A stretch of 61,959 bases of DNA from Bacteroidaceae bacterium (GTDB taxonomy: Bacteria; Bacteroidota; Bacteroidia; Bacteroidales; Bacteroidaceae), in assembly GCA_017444485.1 (NCBI GenBank), contig JAFSWM010000033.1, positions 1 through 61,959 on the forward strand. Direction: 5' to 3'. The notes beneath the pieces are model-generated. The model worked only from the letters and a program-made list of their open reading frames with translations. It had not been told where the DNA came from and ran no database searches. Made by a program: the position numbers and the translations under genes. The first letter of the stretch is position 1; each line of letters opens with the position of its first letter. This document shows, in pieces, positions 6,427 through 46,760 of this stretch.

Positions 6427-7659
6427 ATGGTTCTCAACTACATTTGGATTGGCTTCTTTGCCGTGGCCTTCGTGGTGGCGGTGGTGCGGCTGGTCTTTTT
6501 TGGCGACACCGACGTGTTTCCGGCAATCATGAACAGCACGTTCGACACGTCGAAGACCGCCTTTGAGATTTCGCTGGGCCTCACGGGCGTGCTGTCGCTC
6601 TGGCTCGGCATCATGAAGGTGGGCGAGCGCGGCGGCGTGGTGTCGGCCTTTGCCAAGGTACTCGGGCCGGTGTTCGCCAAACTTTTCCCCGACATCCCCA
6701 AGGGCCACCCCGTGGTGGGCAACATCTTTATGAACCTCTCGGCCAATATGCTTGGCCTTGACAATGCGGCCACCCCGCTGGGCTTGAAGGCCATGGAGGG
6801 CTTGCAGGAACTCAATCCCAAGAAGGACACGGCGAGCAACCCGATGATTATGTTCCTGGTACTGAACACGAGCGGCCTGACCATCATCCCCGTGAGCGTG
6901 ATGGTGTATCGTGCGCAGTTGGGCGCCGCGCAGCCCTCCGATATCTTCATCCCCATCCTCATTGCCACTTTCTTCAGCACGCTGGCGGGCATCGTGATTA
7001 CTTGCTTGTTTCAGCGCATCAACCTCTTCAACCGCACGCTGCTGCTCACGCTGGGCGGCCTGTCGCTCTTCGTGGCCTGCGTCATTTGGGGCTTCAGCCG
7101 CATGGACAGTGCGATGATGGACGTGGTGGGCACCACGTCGGCCAATGTCCTGCTGTTCCTGATCATCATCGCCTTCCTCGCCGCTGGGGTGCGTAGGCGT
7201 GTGAACGTGTACGACGCCTTTGTGGAAGGCGCCAAGGACGGTTTCCAAACCGCCGTGCGCATCATTCCCTACCTCGTGGCCATCCTGGTGGCCATCGGCG
7301 TGTTTCGCGCGAGCGGTGCGATGGACTGGCTGATAGAGGGCGTGAAGACGGGCGTGGCCGCCATGGGCTTCGACGCGCAGTGGGTGGAGGCCCTGCCCAC
7401 CGCCTTGATGAAGCCCCTGAGCGGAAGCGGTGCGCGCGGCATGATGGTGGACTGCATGACGGCACACGGCGCCGACAGTTTCGCCGGACGCCTGAGTTGC
7501 GTGTTCCAGGGCAGTACCGACACCACGTTCTACATCCTCGCCGTCTATTTCGGCAGCGTGGGGATCAGCCGTATGCGCCACGCCGTGACCTGCGGCCTGC
7601 TGGCCGACCTGGCCGGAGCAATTTCGGCGGTGGCCATCTGCTACCTCTTCTTCGGATAG
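6427..7659 (+). CDS. Nucleoside recognition (Gate) domain membrane protein, SpmA-SpmB fusion
   Basis: A 410-residue polytopic membrane protein in which SpmA-like (residues 1 to about 200) and SpmB-like (about 230-410) halves are fused. The Bacillus proteins take part in spore core dehydration, but this fused form occurs in non-sporulating Bacteroidota, where its role is unknown; a transporter of a small solute is a reasonable guess. Both halves carry the Gate-type signature: FMNLSANMLGLDNAATPLGLKA-like in the first, LPTALMKPLSGSGARGMM-like in the second. The stop codon TAG at 7657-7659 is the first three bases of the 22-base palindromic array downstream. Confidence 0.87.
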   Translation: MVLNYIWIGFFAVAFVVAVVRLVFFGDTDVFPAIMNSTFDTSKTAFEISLGLTGVLSLWLGIMKVGERGGVVSAFAKVLGPVFAKLFPDIPKGHPVVGNIFMNLSANMLGLDNAATPLGLKAMEGLQELNPKKDTASNPMIMFLVLNTSGLTIIPVSVMVYRAQLGAAQPSDIFIPILIATFFSTLAGIVITCLFQRINLFNRTLLLTLGGLSLFVACVIWGFSRMDSAMMDVVGTTSANVLLFLIIIAFLAAGVRRRVNVYDAFVEGAKDGFQTAVRIIPYLVAILVAIGVFRASGAMDWLIEGVKTGVAAMGFDAQWVEALPTALMKPLSGSGARGMMVDCMTAHGADSFAGRLSCVFQGSTDTTFYILAVYFGSVGISRMRHAVTCGLLADLAGAISAVAICYLFFG

Positions 7660-7740
7660 GAAGTAGTACTTCCTCGCTTAGGAAGTAGTACTTCCTCGCT
7701 TAGGAAGTGGTACTTCCTCGCTTAGGAAGTGGTACTTCCT
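7657..7740. repeat. Four-unit 22-bp palindromic tandem array (family B)
   Basis: Four near-identical units with a period of 22 bases start at about 7657, 7679, 7701 and 7723. Units one and two contain AGGAAGTA-G-TACTTCCT, an 8-bp inverted repeat with one central base; units three and four change one arm base, leaving a G-T pair. CGCT spacers join them. The array begins inside the stop codon of the SpmA-SpmB gene. Since 22 is not a multiple of three, the TAGs in the units place stops in every frame. No unique spacers, so it is not a CRISPR. Confidence 0.9.
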
Positions 7741-7798
7741 GCTTTGAGGTAGTGGGCACGAAAAATGGATTAAGACAAGAGCATAACAAGAAGCGTTT

Positions 7799-30431: not shown

Positions 30432-30456
30432 TGGCGGGATGATGCTTTGAGGCCCT

Positions 30457-30488
30457 TACAACCTCATAACCTTACAACCTTATAACCT
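30457..30488 (-). repeat. Octanucleotide tandem array in the leader of the UPF0104 gene (family E)
   Basis: Four 8-base units on the plus strand (TACAACCT, CATAACCT, TACAACCT, TATAACCT) lie between the minus-strand promoter at 30520-30528 and the start codon at 30431, so they are transcribed in the mRNA leader. A related array is in the leader of the divergent rsmA gene. Confidence 0.8.
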
Positions 30489-30649: not shown

Positions 30650-30727
30650 AAGGTTATAAGGATCTGAAACCATTATCCACCGCGTGCATAGCCCCTCAAA
30701 ACCTAACAACCTCAAAACCTAATAACC
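30650..30727 (+). repeat. Octanucleotide array and complementary block in the rsmA leader (family E)
   Basis: AAGGTTATAAGG (30650-30661) is followed by four 8-base units TCAAAACC, TAACAACC, TCAAAACC, TAATAACC (30696-30727). The first block can pair with the CCTAATAACCT end of the array to form a leader hairpin just upstream of the start codon. Confidence 0.7.
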
Positions 30728-30738
30728 TCAAGAAATCC

Positions 30739-31554
30739 ATGCGTCGTGTACGTCCCAAGAAATCCCTCGGTCAGCACTTTCTGACCGACCTCCCCACTGC
30801 CGCCCGCATTGCCGATACCGTTGATGCCTGCCCAGACCTACCTATTCTTGAGGTGGGGCCAGGCACTGGTGTGCTGACGCAATTCCTGCTCAAAAAGGAG
30901 AGGCGGCTTCGTGTGGTGGAACTCGACCATGAGAGTGTGGACTACCTGCGCAAGAACTTCGTTGGGCTGCGCGATGAGGACATCATCCCCGACGACTTTT
31001 TGAAGATGCACCTCGACCGCACGTTCGGCGGCCCTTTCGTCCTCACAGGCAACTATCCCTATAATATCAGTTCGCAGATTTTCTTTCGTGTGGTGGAGTT
31101 CCGATGCTTCATCCCTTGCTGTACAGGGATGATACAAAAGGAGGTGGCTGAACGACTGGCCGCCAAGCCTGGTTGTAAGGATTTCGGCATACTGAGCGCA
31201 TTGGTGCAGTTGTGGTATGACGTGGAGTACCTTTTTACGGTTGAACCCGACGTGTTCGACCCGCCGCCCAAGGTGCGTAGTGCTGTGGTCCGGCTTATGC
31301 GCAACAGCCGTCAAGAGATAGACTGCGACGAGTCGCTTTATAAACGAATCGTCAAGACTGTGTTCAACCAGCGCCGCAAGATGTTGCGTGTCACATTGCG
31401 CGGCCTTCTGCAACAATTGGACAACGAACACGGCATACAGAGAGACCACAGCGCTCTGCTCACCGACCCACTACTCACTCGTCGCCCCGAACAGTTGGGT
31501 GTGGAGGACTTCATTTCCCTGACCAAACGGATCTCATTGAATATTGACCGTTAA
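30739..31554 (+). CDS. rsmA: 16S rRNA dimethyladenosine transferase (KsgA/RsmA)
   Basis: Dimethylates two adjacent adenosines in helix 45 of 16S rRNA late in small-subunit assembly. The 271-residue protein shows KKSLGQHFLTD at the start, the SAM motif EVGPGTGVLTQ (about residues 38-48), and the catalytic NYPYNISSQIFF near residue 110 (NLPY-type). The C-terminal RNA-binding domain ends SLTKRIS; the last residues LNIDR and the stop TAA lie inside the heptad repeat that follows. Confidence 0.96.
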   Translation: MRRVRPKKSLGQHFLTDLPTAARIADTVDACPDLPILEVGPGTGVLTQFLLKKERRLRVVELDHESVDYLRKNFVGLRDEDIIPDDFLKMHLDRTFGGPFVLTGNYPYNISSQIFFRVVEFRCFIPCCTGMIQKEVAERLAAKPGCKDFGILSALVQLWYDVEYLFTVEPDVFDPPPKVRSAVVRLMRNSRQEIDCDESLYKRIVKTVFNQRRKMLRVTLRGLLQQLDNEHGIQRDHSALLTDPLLTRRPEQLGVEDFISLTKRISLNIDR

Positions 31555-31664
31555 TCATTGACCATTGATGATTGACCATTGAACATTACCAATACCAGCT
31601 GCAATGGATTTTGCGAACGATCAATGTTCAATGAAGAACGGTCAATGGTCAATGTTCAATGGTT
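31535..31664. repeat. Heptad-repeat hairpin (family A), copy 1
   Basis: Left arm of 7-base units of the ACCATTG/AACATTG type (to 31587), a centre with ACCAATACC and GGATTTTGC (31588-31619), and a right arm of CAATGTT/CAATGGT-type units. It covers the last codons and stop of rsmA and ends just before the dnaK promoter. Copies at 42708, 43906 and 44627 have the same plan. Confidence 0.85.
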
Positions 31665-31687
31665 AATTGTTGAGCGGCCAATAACTT

Positions 31688-41762: not shown

Positions 41763-41826
41763 CTACAGTGGTACTGTAGAACGTCTTGAGTGGTACTGTA
41801 GAGCGTCTTGAGTAGTACTATAGAAC
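41763..41826. repeat. 22-bp period tandem array after yitT (family B-like)
   Basis: Three units with a 22-base period begin AGTGGTACTGTAGA at 41767 and 41789 and AGTAGTACTATAGA at 41811, the last partial. The first is part of CTACAGT-GGT-ACTGTAG (41763-41779), a 7-bp inverted repeat. Same period and palindromic style as the array at 7657 but a different sequence. Confidence 0.8.
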
Positions 41827-41830
41827 AAGT

Positions 41831-41865
41831 AAAGTATACCTTTACTGCTATTAAAGGTATACTTT
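41831..41865. repeat. Perfect 14-bp inverted repeat before the glycosyltransferase gene
   Basis: AAAGTATACCTTTA (41831-41844) and TAAAGGTATACTTT (41852-41865) with a 7-base loop. AT-rich stem ending in TTT; it could terminate the leuS-yitT message or be an operator. A third related block, GTTATACTTT, follows at 41878. Confidence 0.85.
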
Positions 41866-41902
41866 AATGCCATCAGAGTTATACTTTGCGATTTTCACAC
41901 CC

Positions 41903-41916: not shown

Positions 41917-42720
41917 ATGAAACTCACCGTCGCCGCCCAGGGAGGGCTTTGCAACCGTCTGCGAGTGCTCTTCGGCACACTGGCAGTGGCCGAGGCGCAG
42001 CAGGTGCGCACCCGCCTGGTGTGGGAGCCCAACTGGCAGTGCGAGGCCTACTTCGACGAACTCTTCGAGCCCCTGCAGAGCCCGTGGCTGACGGTGACCG
42101 ACGGCTTGTTCCTCGACCGGCCCTCGTCGCACAAGGAACTCTATCTGCCCCAGGTGCTCCGCTTGCCGCTCTATAGGAAGCAAATCAAACTCTTCCACCC
42201 CGACCGCCACGGCCCGCTGGCCGAAGCCCTGCGCCGCTACCGCAGCCTCTACATCAACACCGGCTTCCAGGTAGCACCCTACGGCACCGAGCAGTTTCGC
42301 CGCCTGCGCGCCCTGCCCGAACTGCAGGCGCGGATCGACAAAACCGTGGCGCACTTCCCCGAAAACATCATCGGCGTGCACGTGCGCCGCAGCGACAACA
42401 CATGGTCCAAGCAAGTGAGCACCGACGAAGCCTTTGTGCGCGCCATGGAGCAGTACCCCGACGCCAAGTTCTACATCGCCTCCGACGATGCCGAAGTGAA
42501 ATGGCTCCTGCGCGACACTTTCAAGGGCCGCACCCTCGCCCAGGAGACCGACGGCCTGCGCGACAACGCCTTCAGCCTCGGCGAAGCACTGGTGGACCTG
42601 TGCTGCCTCGCAGCCACACGCCGCGTCATCGGCAGTTACTGGAGTTCGTTCAGCGACCTCGCCGCAGAGATAGGCGGCGTACCCCTCGAGATAGCAGGCA
42701 AGTCTTTCATTGAACATTGA
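41917..42720 (+). CDS. Fucosyltransferase-like glycosyltransferase
   Basis: A 267-residue soluble glycosyltransferase whose two clearest motifs, GGLCNRLRVLFG at the N-terminus (residues 9-20) and GVHVRRSDN (about residue 151), match the GDP-fucose-type superfamily (NodZ, alpha-1,6- and O-fucosyltransferases), where the H-x-R-R-x-D loop binds the donor. Donor and acceptor are not known. The C-terminal IEH and the stop TGA come from the heptad repeat. Followed by an acyltransferase, so it may help decorate a surface glycan. Confidence 0.8.
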   Translation: MKLTVAAQGGLCNRLRVLFGTLAVAEAQQVRTRLVWEPNWQCEAYFDELFEPLQSPWLTVTDGLFLDRPSSHKELYLPQVLRLPLYRKQIKLFHPDRHGPLAEALRRYRSLYINTGFQVAPYGTEQFRRLRALPELQARIDKTVAHFPENIIGVHVRRSDNTWSKQVSTDEAFVRAMEQYPDAKFYIASDDAEVKWLLRDTFKGRTLAQETDGLRDNAFSLGEALVDLCCLAATRRVIGSYWSSFSDLAAEIGGVPLEIAGKSFIEH

Positions 42721-42939
42721 ACATTGACCATTGAACATTACCAATACCACAGCTAACTGGTCTTGCCAATGTTCAACGTTCAATGTTCAACGTTCAATGT
42801 TCAACGTTCAATGTTCAACGTTCAATGTTCAATGTTCAATGTTCAATGTTCCAACGTTCAACGGTCAATGTTCAACGGTCAATGTTCAACGGTCAATGTT
42901 CAACGGTCAATGTTCAACGGTCAATGTTCAACGGTTAAC
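42708..42939. repeat. Heptad-repeat hairpin (family A), copy 2, with expanded right arm
   Basis: Left arm of AACATTG/ACCATTG units (42708-42739) contains the glycosyltransferase stop codon. The centre has ACCAATACC and GGTCTTGCC (42740-42766). The right arm is 24 heptads of CAATGTT, CAACGTT or CAACGGT: twelve (42767-42850), one extra C at 42851, then twelve more (42852-42935). It runs into the acyltransferase reading frame. Confidence 0.95.
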
Positions 42940-43920
42940 GGCTTTGAAGCCCTGCGCTGGCTCGCCGCACTCACAGTAGTGGTGAGCCACTTCTTCGGCC
43001 TGGCACAAGTTGAAGGCATGCCAGCGCTGCCCACCGCCGAGGCCGTGCAACTCTTCTTCATCCTCAGCGGCATGCTCACCTATCGCAGCCTCGTCGCAAA
43101 GCCCGGCACACTCGCCTTCTACAAGCGCCGCGCACGCCGCATACTGCCCGCATACTGGAGCGTCATCCTGTTCTGCCTGCTCGTGGGCCTGCTCTTCACC
43201 GAGATACCCCTGCGCCACTTCGTCACCCACCCGCAGACTGGGCGCTACCTGCTTTGGAACGCCCTAATGCTAAACCGCCTGCAGCCCGCACTGCCCGGCG
43301 TCTTCGAGACCCACGTGAACACCGCCATGGACGGCGCCCTCTGGACCATGAAGTACGAAGTAGCCTTCTACCTGCTCCTGCCCGCCGCCGTCCTCCTCCT
43401 GCGCAAATGGGACAAGCGCATCGTCTTTGCCACAGGCTACGTGCTGCTCGTCATAGCCCAGTTCACCCTCAGGCTGATGGCCTACCACGGCGGCGGCGAG
43501 ACCATTGCCCTGCTCTGTCAGCGCGGCGTGTCGCAGGCCGTATGTTTCTGGTCTGGCATGATCGTTTGCGAAGCCTATCCCATACTCTCCGCCCGCAGCC
43601 ACATCGCATTCCCACTGGCCCTGGCCCTGGCTGTGCTCGGTCTCGTATGGTGGCCGTTCAAGATAGTCTGGCCCCTGGCCTATGCCGTACTCATCCTGAT
43701 CATCGGCACGCGCCTCCCGCTCCTGAACCATTGCAACCGCCTGCCACGCATCACCTACGAAATCTTCCTTATCCACTTCCCCATCATACAGGTAGCCGTA
43801 GAGGTCGACCTGCCCCAGCGCTTAGGCACAGCGACGGCATTCAGCGTCTGCCTGCTGCTCAGCCTCATCTTCGCCAGCCTGCTTCATCACACAGTAGGCT
43901 TATTGACCATTGACCATTGA
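42910..43920 (+). CDS. Acyltransferase 3 family (OafA/YrhL-like) membrane protein
   Basis: A 336-residue membrane protein with about ten membrane segments that transfers acyl groups to sugars. The family start ALRWLAALTVVVSHFFG supplies the conserved Arg and His; PAYWSVILF and AFYKRRARRILP (R-x-x-R-I-x-P) are also seen. Between the heptad array (to 42935) and that conserved Arg there is no ATG, GTG or TTG in frame, so the start must lie in the array; the last in-frame ATG is 42910, giving the N-terminus MFNGQCSTVNG. The frame stays open further up to 42763. The end, LLTIDH and TGA, is supplied by the next repeat. Confidence 0.85.
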   Translation: MFNGQCSTVNGFEALRWLAALTVVVSHFFGLAQVEGMPALPTAEAVQLFFILSGMLTYRSLVAKPGTLAFYKRRARRILPAYWSVILFCLLVGLLFTEIPLRHFVTHPQTGRYLLWNALMLNRLQPALPGVFETHVNTAMDGALWTMKYEVAFYLLLPAAVLLLRKWDKRIVFATGYVLLVIAQFTLRLMAYHGGGETIALLCQRGVSQAVCFWSGMIVCEAYPILSARSHIAFPLALALAVLGLVWWPFKIVWPLAYAVLILIIGTRLPLLNHCNRLPRITYEIFLIHFPIIQVAVEVDLPQRLGTATAFSVCLLLSLIFASLLHHTVGLLTIDH

Positions 43921-44030
43921 TGATTGACCATTGATGATTGACCATTGATGATTGACCATTGATGATTGACCATTGACTATTCTCAGTGGTATTGCCAATG
44001 GTCAATGTTCAATGTTCAATGTTCAATGTT
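43906..44030. repeat. Heptad-repeat hairpin (family A), copy 3
   Basis: Left arm: ten heptads ACCATTG or ATGATTG (43906-43975), containing the acyltransferase stop codon. Centre with GGTATTGC (43976-43995). Right arm: one CAATGGT and four CAATGTT units (43996-44030). The RdgB start codon lies 23 bases further on. Confidence 0.93.
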
Positions 44031-44053
44031 CAATAAAAGAAACCATAAAGACC

Positions 44054-44641
44054 ATGAAGGAAATCGTCTTCGCCACCAACAACGCCCACAAACTCGCAGA
44101 GATACGCGCCATCCTCGGCACAGCCTTCAACGTGCTCAGCCTTGCCGACATAGGCTGCCACGACGACATCCCCGAGACCGCCGACACCCTCGAGGGCAAT
44201 GCCTTGCAGAAGGCACGCTACGTAGCCGAGCACTACCACACCGCCTGCTTTGCCGACGACACAGGCCTTGAAGTCACAGCCCTCGGCGGCGCACCCGGCG
44301 TCCATACCGCCCGCTATGCCTATCCCGACCGGCAAGACACCGAGGCCAACACCGACCGCTTGCTCCAAGAGTTGCAGCACGCTGCCGACCGCTCAGCCCG
44401 CTTTCGCACCGTCATTGCCTACATCGATGCAGCCGGCAAAGAGCACCTCTTCGAAGGCATCGTGCACGGCCACATCACCACACAGCGCCAAGGCACCGAA
44501 GGCTTCGGCTACGACCCCGTCTTCGCTTCAGACGAGAGCGGCCTCACCTTCGCACAGATGGGCGTGCAGGCCAAAAACCGCATCAGCCACAGGGCACGCG
44601 CCGTGGCAAGACTCAGCGAATACTTGCTCATTGACCATTGA
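44054..44641 (+). CDS. rdgB: XTP/dITP diphosphatase (RdgB/HAM1)
   Basis: A 195-residue house-cleaning enzyme that hydrolyses non-canonical purine triphosphates (dITP, XTP) to monophosphates. It begins KEIVFATNNAHKLAEI, the family substrate loop, with FADDTGLEVTALGGAPGVHTARYA near residue 70 and GFGYDPVF near 150 and SHRARA near the end. The ATG at 44054 is the family start; the frame continues upstream into the heptad repeat, which is not part of the protein. The final LIDH and TGA come from repeat copy 4. Confidence 0.95.
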   Translation: MKEIVFATNNAHKLAEIRAILGTAFNVLSLADIGCHDDIPETADTLEGNALQKARYVAEHYHTACFADDTGLEVTALGGAPGVHTARYAYPDRQDTEANTDRLLQELQHAADRSARFRTVIAYIDAAGKEHLFEGIVHGHITTQRQGTEGFGYDPVFASDESGLTFAQMGVQAKNRISHRARAVARLSEYLLIDH

Positions 44642-44731
44642 CCATTGATCATTGAACATTGACCATTGAACATTGCCAATACCGGCAGCGTATGTGGTTT
44701 TGCTAATGTTCAATGTTCAACAGTCAATGTT
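44627..44731. repeat. Heptad-repeat hairpin (family A), copy 4
   Basis: Left arm of seven heptads (44627-44675) that includes the rdgB stop codon, centre with CCAATACC and GGTTTTGC (44676-44703), right arm TAATGTT, CAATGTT, CAACAGT, CAATGTT (44704-44731). The speA ATG is 24 bases downstream. Confidence 0.92.
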
Positions 44732-44755
44732 CAATAAAAATAAAACTCAAAGCCT

Positions 44756-46654
44756 ATGACAACGAGAAAATGGCGGCTGGAGGACTCTGAGGACCTCTAC
44801 AACGTGAAAGGTTGGGGCGCCGGCTACTTCGGCATCAACAAGGCCGGCCACGCCTGTGTCACCACGCTCAAGGGCGGCACGCAGGTGGACCTGCAAGAAG
44901 TGATGGAAGAACTCGAAGGGCGCGACATGCCCGCCCCCGTCCTGCTACGCTTTCCCGACATCCTCGCCGACCGCATAGAGATGACGGCCAACTGCTTCGC
45001 CAAGGCCCGCAAGGAATACAACTACCGCGCCGAGCACTTCATCATCTACCCCATCAAGGTCAACCAGATGCGCCCCGTGGTGGAGGAAATCATCAGCCAC
45101 GGCGCACGCTACAACCTCGGTCTGGAATGCGGTGCCAAGCCCGAACTCCATGCCGTGCTGGGGGTGAATATGGACAGCGACAGCCCCATCATCTGCAACG
45201 GCCATAAGGACCGCAACTACATCGAACTCGCATTGCTTGCCCAAAAGATGGGCAAACGCGTCTTCCTCGTCATCGAGAAACTCCCAGAACTCCAAATCAT
45301 AGCCCAGGCAGCCGAGAAGATCGGTGTGCGCCCCAACCTCGGCATACGTATCAAACTCGCCAGCAGCGGCAGCGGCAAGTGGGAGGAGAGCGGCGGTGAC
45401 GCCTCCAAGTTTGGCCTCTCGTGTAGCGAACTGCTGCAAGCCCTCGACTGGCTCGACGCCAACGGGCTGCACGACTGCCTGCGCCTCATCCACTTCCACA
45501 TAGGCAGTCAGATCACCAAGATACGCCGCATCAATACCGCCCTGCGCGAGGCCGCACAGTACTATGTGCAACTGCGCACCATGGGGTGGCAGATCGATTT
45601 CGTGGACTGCGGCGGCGGACTCGGCGTGGACTACGACGGCACACGCTCCAGCAACTCACAAAGCAGCGTGAACTACAGCGTGCAGGAGTATGTGAACGAC
45701 TGCGTCTATAACTTCGTAGATGCCTCCGACAAGAACGACATCCCGCACCCCAACCTCATCACAGAGGGCGGGCGCTCCCTCACCGCTCACCACAGCCTCC
45801 TCGTGCTCGACGTGATGGAGAGTGTGCGCCTGAGCGAGATGTCGCAAGACTTCCAGCCCGACGAGGACGCCCACCAACTCGTAAAAGACCTCACCGAGAT
45901 TTGGGACAAACTCTCCCCGCGCTCCATGCTCGAGGACTGGCACGACGCCGAAGATATACGCGCCGAGGCCCTCGACCTCTTCCGCCACGGCATCATCGAC
46001 CTGCGCACCCGTGCACAGATTGAGAGCCTCTACTGGAGCGTCACGCGCGAAGTCGATGAACTCTCGCACCACCAGAAGCACGTGCCCGACGAACTGCGTG
46101 CCCTCGACAGCCTGATGGCCGACAAGTATTTCTGCAACTTCTCCCTCTTCCAGTCACTGCCCGACGCTTGGGGCATCGACCAAATCTTTCCCATCATGCC
46201 GCTCGCCCGCTTGGCAGAACGTCCCACGCGCAACGCCACCATCCAGGACATCACCTGCGACAGCGACGGAAAGATCGATGCCTATGTGAACCACGATCAG
46301 CAAAAGACCTACCTGCCGCTCCACGAGGTCAGCCCCGGCGAGCACTACTACATCGGCGTGTTCCTCGTTGGCGCCTATCAGGAAATTCTCGGCAACATGC
46401 ACAACCTCTTCGGCGACACCAACGCCGTACACATCTCTGTGGACGAGGAGGGCTGGCACATCGACAAAACGATTGACGGCGAGACCGTGGCCGACCTGCT
46501 CGACTATGTGCAGTACGACCCCAAGCGCCTCGTGCGCCGACTGGAAACGTGGGTGACACGCGCCGTGAAGGAGCAACGCATCACTCCCGAGGAGGGCAAA
46601 GAGTTCATCTCTAACTATCGCAGCGGCCTTTACGGATATACTTATATTGAGTGA
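44756..46654 (+). CDS. speA: Biosynthetic arginine decarboxylase
   Basis: A 632-residue PLP enzyme making agmatine from arginine, the first step of one route to polyamines. The PLP-binding Lys101 is in YPIKVNQMRPVVE; HFHIGSQ and DCGGGLGVDYDG (phosphate-binding Gly-rich loop) follow, and EGGRSLTAHHS is seen near residue 340. Length agrees with the E. coli enzyme. Last gene of the plus-strand run that begins with leuS. Confidence 0.97.
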   Translation: MTTRKWRLEDSEDLYNVKGWGAGYFGINKAGHACVTTLKGGTQVDLQEVMEELEGRDMPAPVLLRFPDILADRIEMTANCFAKARKEYNYRAEHFIIYPIKVNQMRPVVEEIISHGARYNLGLECGAKPELHAVLGVNMDSDSPIICNGHKDRNYIELALLAQKMGKRVFLVIEKLPELQIIAQAAEKIGVRPNLGIRIKLASSGSGKWEESGGDASKFGLSCSELLQALDWLDANGLHDCLRLIHFHIGSQITKIRRINTALREAAQYYVQLRTMGWQIDFVDCGGGLGVDYDGTRSSNSQSSVNYSVQEYVNDCVYNFVDASDKNDIPHPNLITEGGRSLTAHHSLLVLDVMESVRLSEMSQDFQPDEDAHQLVKDLTEIWDKLSPRSMLEDWHDAEDIRAEALDLFRHGIIDLRTRAQIESLYWSVTREVDELSHHQKHVPDELRALDSLMADKYFCNFSLFQSLPDAWGIDQIFPIMPLARLAERPTRNATIQDITCDSDGKIDAYVNHDQQKTYLPLHEVSPGEHYYIGVFLVGAYQEILGNMHNLFGDTNAVHISVDEEGWHIDKTIDGETVADLLDYVQYDPKRLVRRLETWVTRAVKEQRITPEEGKEFISNYRSGLYGYTYIE

Positions 46655-46670: not shown

Positions 46671-46760
46671 TTGTAGTTTAAACTAGGTCCGTGTGACTTT
46701 AAAGTCACACCGAGTGACTTTAAAGTCACACGGATATAGTTTCAACGAAGGTCCGTTGAA
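46671..46760. repeat. Twin-palindrome repeat (family C), complete copy
   Basis: Two GTGACTTTAAAGTCAC palindromes nested in a 21-bp inverted repeat (46688-46708 with 46714-46734, loop ACCGA), bounded by AAACTA (46680-46685) and TAGTTT (46737-46742). Upstream TAGTTTAAAC and AGGTCCG match the 27-bp hairpin at 12887. A further inverted repeat, TTCAACG (46741-46747) with CGTTGAA (46754-46760), follows. Located between the convergent speA and DUF5686 genes. Confidence 0.93.

Follow-up and report, generated by a model that had tools for sequence, protein, structure and literature searches.

A dispersed palindrome with heptanucleotide arms that supplies stop codons to adjoining genes in a ruminant-gut Bacteroidales genome

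The DNA analysed here (the window) is a 61,959 nt stretch, contig C105 of a Bacteroidaceae genome (GCA_017444485.1, contig JAFSWM010000033.1) that comprises 2,235,276 bases in 115 contigs. A preliminary description of the window had placed inverted heptad arrays at 31535, 42708, 43906 and 44627, and all four were found there (Table 1). The centre motif that it gave them was recovered in part: CCAATACC occurs in three of the four copies and is absent from 43906, and GGTnTTGC is likewise present in three, with GGATTTTGC in its place at 31535. RNA folding gave z-scores of -9.1 (42708-42800), -5.8 (31535), -6.4 (43902) and -7.4 (44630). An Rfam search of the window at gathering cut-offs returned nothing besides one tRNA. 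The window also carries octad arrays (CCTTACAA, CCTCAAAA) at 30454-30488 and 30694-30731, in the gap of divergent genes, and an 8 nt unit similar to these makes gene-end arrays in the sister genome introduced below. Tandem repeats with units of 21-22 bp are found at 7657-7744, 41767-41826, 41834-41887 and 46677-46731.

Table 1. Copies of the palindrome in the window and the genes that adjoin them.
Feature	Position	Strand	Remarks
Copy A, inverted heptad palindrome	31535..31668	.	core CCAATACC..TTTTGC at 31589-31614; R1 bits 77.3
Copy B	42708..42933	.	left arm 42708-42740, core 42741-42766, long right arm 42767-42933; R1 bits 92.7
Copy C	43902..44034	.	degenerate core without CCAATACC, GGTATTGC retained; R1 bits 53.5
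Copy D	44630..44735	.	left arm 44630-44675, core 44676-44703, right arm 44705-44735; R1 bits 88.8
rRNA adenine dimethylase family gene (PF00398)	30739..31554	+	TAA stop in degenerate unit inside copy A; C-terminus ..SLNIDR*
Gene without Pfam match	41917..42720	+	TGA stop inside copy B; tail ..SFIEH*
Acyltransferase gene (PF01757)	42910..43920	+	predicted ATG start in copy B right arm; TGA stop in copy C
Ham1/RdgB gene (PF01725)	44054..44641	+	stop inside copy D; tail ..LLIDH*
Arginine decarboxylase gene (speA-like)	44756..46654	+	start 20 bp past copy D

The palindrome is about 100 bp long, and this 2.2-Mb genome of a ruminant-gut Bacteroidales bacterium has copies of it dispersed over 82 sites or more. 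Sites were located with a covariance model (R1) built on 11 copies, which gave 148 strand matches at E <=0.01 that were merged into 82 sites; this is a lower bound, with 150 of 1272 candidates scored. The heptad pattern ATTGANNATTGANNATTGA has 140 forward and 156 reverse matches genome-wide against none for a control pattern read backwards, and the heptad arrays are therefore beyond chance.

In register, a typical copy consists of a T-tract and C, about four NNATTGA heptads, ATT, the core, AAT, about four TCAATNN heptads, and G followed by an A-tract. The NN of the NNATTGA heptads is CC or AC in most cases. Four heptads per arm is the mode on both sides (22 left arms, 32 right arms), with a range from 0 to 28, and four elements have a left arm without any heptad. 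The core is 26 bp long and near-palindromic (GCAAAACC-N-ATTGCANC-N-GGTATTGG), and its stem has two recurring mismatches, G opposite G and A opposite A. At the 162 arm ends, the base before the outermost ATTGA is C in 71%, and T is the commonest base from -2 to -8 (51-70% at -2 to -7, and 43% at -8). Since this outer tract reads T at one end of the element and A at the opposite end, it is part of the inverted repeat rather than of the target. The element has terminal inverted repeats with defined ends like those of MITEs (T-rich then C; 162 ends), intergenic tandem 7 nt units of the STRR type, and, in the manner of REPs, many similar extragenic palindromes in one genome (82 sites, none intragenic).

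The left arms in the window had been described as stopping every frame, and this was borne out, with all four needing at most 19 nt to close the three frames; the four right arms do the same when read on the opposite strand. Across the genome, 149 of 164 inward-read arms close all three frames. Closure takes no more than 21 nt in 123 of the 164, compared with 1.3% of arms after shuffling and with 4 of 130 element-free gene 3′ flanks. Because each unit carries a TGA and the period is 7, any frame entering from either side meets a stop within about three units.

Genes were called with a simple caller of our own trained on this sequence. None of the 82 sites lies inside a called gene; 63 lie between co-directional, 9 between divergent and 5 between convergent genes, and the remaining 5 are flanked by a called gene on a single side. 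Elements are faced by 77 gene 3′ ends (76 distinct genes), with the stop inside the element in 34, 2-24 bp before it in 31, and farther than 24 bp away in 12. Most copies thus lie close to gene ends, as the preliminary description required: 65 of the 77 stops are in the element or no more than 24 bp from it. The inside stops (32 TGA, 2 TAA) fall in the first unit (10), the second (14), the third (6), deeper (3) or at the edge (1), so that host genes use the element in all three frames, and the protein tails derived from it read ..FFH*, ..SIEH* or ..SLTIDH*. At co-directional sites the stop side is closer than the start side in 50 of 63 cases (p = 3e-6). These gene predictions support the all-frame stop half of the earlier reading for the heptad-armed family of this genome. 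The orientation of the core relative to the genes shows no preference (36 antisense and 27 sense at the 63 co-directional sites, p = 0.31), and co-directional junctions are not significantly enriched (62 of 74 junctions with an element vs 95 of 124 without, p = 0.28).

By SpeA protein the closest named relative is the ruminant Bacteroidaceae MAG RGIG9197 (92% identity); the other SpeA loci among the 80 retained belong to Prevotellaceae, Prevotellamassilia and Alloprevotella records, at <=82%. Twenty elements, from five loci, were compared with the genome of the closest relative (G101, probably identical with G035 to judge by coordinates), and both flanks could be aligned at 9. Where copies B and C lie in our genome, the sister genes form direct ATGA overlaps, and there is no element at either junction; the two junctions are too diverged to give base-level ends for a MITE empty-site or target-site duplication comparison. 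The sister orthologue of gene 41917-42720 has the tail ..EIARQ* and overlaps the following gene as ATGA, a pair that is split in our genome by copy B, which provides the stop of 41917-42720 and the predicted start of 42910-43920. The N-terminus of the latter (MFNGQCSTVNGFEALRW) and that of its sister counterpart (MNPPRLPADNGFELFRW) are of equal length. The orthologue of the Ham1/RdgB gene starts in an ATGA overlap with the acyltransferase gene. Synteny is broken at 31535 and 44627, rsmA/dnaK and rdgB/speA being on different contigs in the sister genome; the rdgB/speA break may be an assembly effect, as a contig end is near.

The remaining seven of the nine sites carry arrays in the sister genome, with other units (AATTAAA, TAAACAA, GAGGTTTAA and TAGGTTTT types) and other cores, and four of the seven are clearly inverted by eye. 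Arrays are present at 7 of 9 element sites vs 6 of 42 other junctions in the fetched stretches (p = 4e-4), or 7 of 42 when one array seen by eye is added (p = 8e-4), these stretches having been picked around orthologues, not at random. The six control-junction arrays have periods of 7 to 9, and one is a TTCTTTC run, not a palindrome. Site-sharing at this level exceeds what blind insertion predicts and may reflect hot spots, turnover at ancestral sites, or a function. At some sites the gene stop lies within the sister array (the TAG of TAGGTTTT twice, and the TAA of AATTAAA). Closure of all frames within 22 nt past the gene stop is seen in two of the seven sister arrays, and one of the seven never closes them within the gap. 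All-frame closure as a law of every arm type in the sister species was rejected on this count, and frame-blind closure is accordingly a property of the present heptad arms rather than of such arrays in general. The sister core half GCCGGA[TC]GG adjoins three arm types (ATTGANN, AATTAGG and GAGGTTTAA) and is also found without arrays, indicating that cores and arms combine and that the site is better kept than the sequence. Repeats of about 20 bp (AAATTAAGCCTAAGTTTG-like) recur in long divergent or convergent gaps of the same genome (L196, L197, L198, L200).

The position of the element next to stop codons would suit a functional 3′ mRNA element, as in some E. coli REPs, where a hairpin near the stop tunes operon expression by holding up ribosomes at termination or by impeding 3′ exonucleases. 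The strong predicted hairpins, the closeness of the facing stops, the arrays at the same sister junctions and the 63 of 82 co-directional sites (an excess over other junctions that is not significant) are consistent with such a role, and PMC12306157 reports that E. coli REPs within 15 nt of the stop affect translation. However, paired heptads show no covariation: in the 60 of 82 elements that were parsed, 92 of 225 were matched (0.409), a rate no higher than with shuffled partners (0.425 by permutation). Compensatory change preserving an RNA structure was not seen. Arms of up to 28 heptads, left arms with none, the two sister junctions without an element and the 9 sites between divergent genes also argue against this reading, which we consider rather unlikely.

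A hairpin after stop codons is also what a Rho-independent terminator would present, but the 10 nt past the element in the gene direction are A-rich, not T-rich (53% A, 15% T), with TTTT in 3 and AAAA in 32 of 63 cases, and so do not form a U-tract. Convergent junctions are not enriched either (5 of 74 with an element vs 13 of 124 without). An intrinsic terminator was rejected on the A-rich downstream sequence, and termination of this type is extremely unlikely.

The start half of the preliminary description fared less well. Its right arms without a forward stop are found at 42708 (measured to 42847) and 43906, and stops are present at 31535 (TGA 31632, TAA 31664) and 44627 (TAA 44704); ATG occurs in all three frames of the right arm in three copies, and in two frames at 44627. 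Read outward, 67 of 164 arms are free of stops and the other 97 have one or more frames stopped; 81 of the 164 offer an ATG in every frame. The claim that the element opens whatever frame leaves it finds little support: the start is predicted to lie inside for about 11 of the 82 genes that face an element (10 by script, and gene 42910-43920, whose array runs past the script-found edge), and starts do not cluster at elements. Among nearby downstream genes, 27 of 58 have an in-frame array ATG without an intervening stop, and in 26 of the 27 another in-frame ATG follows. The all-frame start property looks incidental, a by-product of CAATG, with gene 42910-43920 as one well-supported case of a predicted start supplied by the element.

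These counts bear on the idea of a dedicated cassette, selected to end the incoming frame and open the outgoing one and so to insulate neighbouring genes. The all-frame stop half, the single stop-and-start case at 42910 and the in-frame ATGs of the 27 downstream genes are what such a cassette would show. The scarcity of starts inside, the outward stops in most arms and the slow closure of most sister arrays are not, and the sister units AATTAAA, TAGGTTTT and GAGGTTTAA have outward stops or no ATG (by eye). A dedicated cassette is very unlikely.

Among 101 genomes (this one and 100 relatives) the heptad pattern was found in 28. The backwards control pattern was found in 18 of the 101, our genome being without it, and 7 nt arrays of other sequence are therefore common in the order. 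The R1 model matches 7 of the 58 genomes of the genus, ours included; in 18 loci read from the six other species, the cores differ and so do some of the heptads. The exact core pattern, present 28 times in this genome, was found in none of 57 congeners and none of 392 other genomes of the order; judged by sequence, the core is lineage-specific. In the six other genus genomes (18 loci), the array contains 6 of the 15 facing stops, and all six belong to G014, G015 and G016, which have TTGACAATTGA-type heptads; the count for G022 and G035 is 0 of 4. Stop-bearing heptads were also seen by eye upstream of speA in two horse-gut relatives (TTGACAG / TTGTCCG and AATTAAG heptads; L047, L051), where they begin at the end of the upstream gene. 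A candidate empty site upstream of speA in another relative (L031) was rejected because synteny is lost. Phage spread was rejected as well, the one viral contig that matches the core pattern having no heptads and being judged a chance match.

Purely local heptanucleotide slippage, resembling cyanobacterial STRR or TAACTGA repeats, might leave stop-bearing arrays that persist at gene ends because they are harmless. Heptad copy number is highly variable, heptads differ between related species, and in most of the genomes of a survey cited in PMC4679880, heptamers outnumbered every other class of long tandem repeat. Slippage alone cannot yield a common 26 bp core, two inverted arms and common outer ends at 82 sites, and as a full explanation it is highly improbable; it is likely as the cause of later arm growth. 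The cyanobacterial STRR described by Mazel in 1990 are reportedly tandem heptamers in intergenic positions, as in our element, and are said to be direct repeats without inverted arms or a dispersed common core. The element, having inverted arms and a common core, falls outside that type.

The preliminary description knew of no repeat with the property that it proposed, which is incorrect for the stop half. Delihas 2007 (PMC2229807) describes RUP (107 bp), Correia/NEMIS (155 bp) and CIR as intergenic interspersed repeats with stops in all or all six frames. The element resembles them in being short, dispersed and intergenic with all-frame stops; unlike them, as they are presented there, it draws its stops from 7 nt units in two inverted arms, and these serve as the stop codons of host genes. 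MacGregor 2015 (PMC4679880) describes TAACTGA heptamers, which are also intergenic, stop-bearing 7 nt units, occur in some Bacteroidetes, and had their effect on reading frames already noted. Unlike the element, they are direct repeats (one indirect set is reported) without a common core, and in the Beggiatoaceae genome they lie mostly just upstream of start codons. With REP/RAYT systems the element shares palindromy, high copy number, extragenic position with some copies near a stop, and a Y1 transposase in the genome (Nunvar 2010, PMC2817692; RepRanger 2025, PMC12306157). It has no GTAG-type head as tabulated in PMC2817692, it has heptad arms where REPs have a single short stem, and no transposase gene flanked by the element was found. 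No description of an inverted heptad palindrome in Bacteroidales was found in the titles and abstracts consulted, mostly of open-access papers, which makes this a weak negative; three features are tentatively put forward as not found in print, namely the arrangement of heptads in inverted arms, the fact that about four in ten facing genes end on stops of the element, and the exchange of cores and arms at common sites.

We think it probable, with moderate confidence, that the element is a REP/MITE-like non-coding repeat which, owing to its heptad arms, can land at gene ends without harm. Copy number, palindromy and extragenic position support a REP-like origin, and copies may have spread by a REP-like mobile process. 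A copy that landed on the last codons of a gene, or on a stop/start overlap, would cost the upstream gene only a short tail. Stops would be retained because arms are tolerated at gene ends, that is, through a purifying filter and not for a regulatory task; if the arms are what purifying selection tolerates there, the all-frame stop need not be an adaptation. The ATGs of the outgoing arm would be by-products, used as starts now and then. The 9 of 82 sites between divergent genes and the 12 of 77 facing stops that are over 24 bp distant count against this REP/MITE-like reading, and neither a transposition event nor a target-site duplication nor a presence/absence difference between strains was observed. 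Matches to the Y1 transposase (PF01797) lie at two places in our genome and five in the sister genome, and none of these seven loci, examined over about 3 kb each, carries ATTGANN arrays or the element core. As the association with a RAYT gene was tested and did not appear, the element is filed as REP/MITE-like and not as a REP proper. A GC-rich palindrome (GGGAGCGCGGGCGTC..) stands for one arm in 3 of the 82 copies and in one further copy, and a similar one adjoins a Y1 transposase gene with an open frame (L211), a hint only.

The site-sharing with the sister species can also be read as a system of modular palindromes at the gene junctions of the genus, each with a lineage-specific core and interchangeable 7 to 10 nt stop-bearing arms, in which the position would be preserved between species and its core and arms exchanged wholesale. 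Selection would then have favoured the heptad-armed members as bidirectional, frame-blind translation stoppers, able to enter an ATGA overlap by giving both codons. This reading as a whole is unlikely, and was made somewhat less likely by the finding that only two of the seven sister arrays close the frames within 22 nt.

On the preferred REP/MITE-like reading, a repeat can colonise a gene-dense genome because stop-bearing units with a period not divisible by three would make landing at gene ends survivable. Genes would then rely on the repeat for termination and, in one well-supported case, for a predicted start as well. For annotation, C-terminal tails such as ..SLTIDH* derive from the repeat. 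The element also bears on how overlapping genes get separated and on why 7 nt repeats are common, and the exchange of cores and arms at common sites between sister species is a puzzle that can be tested.
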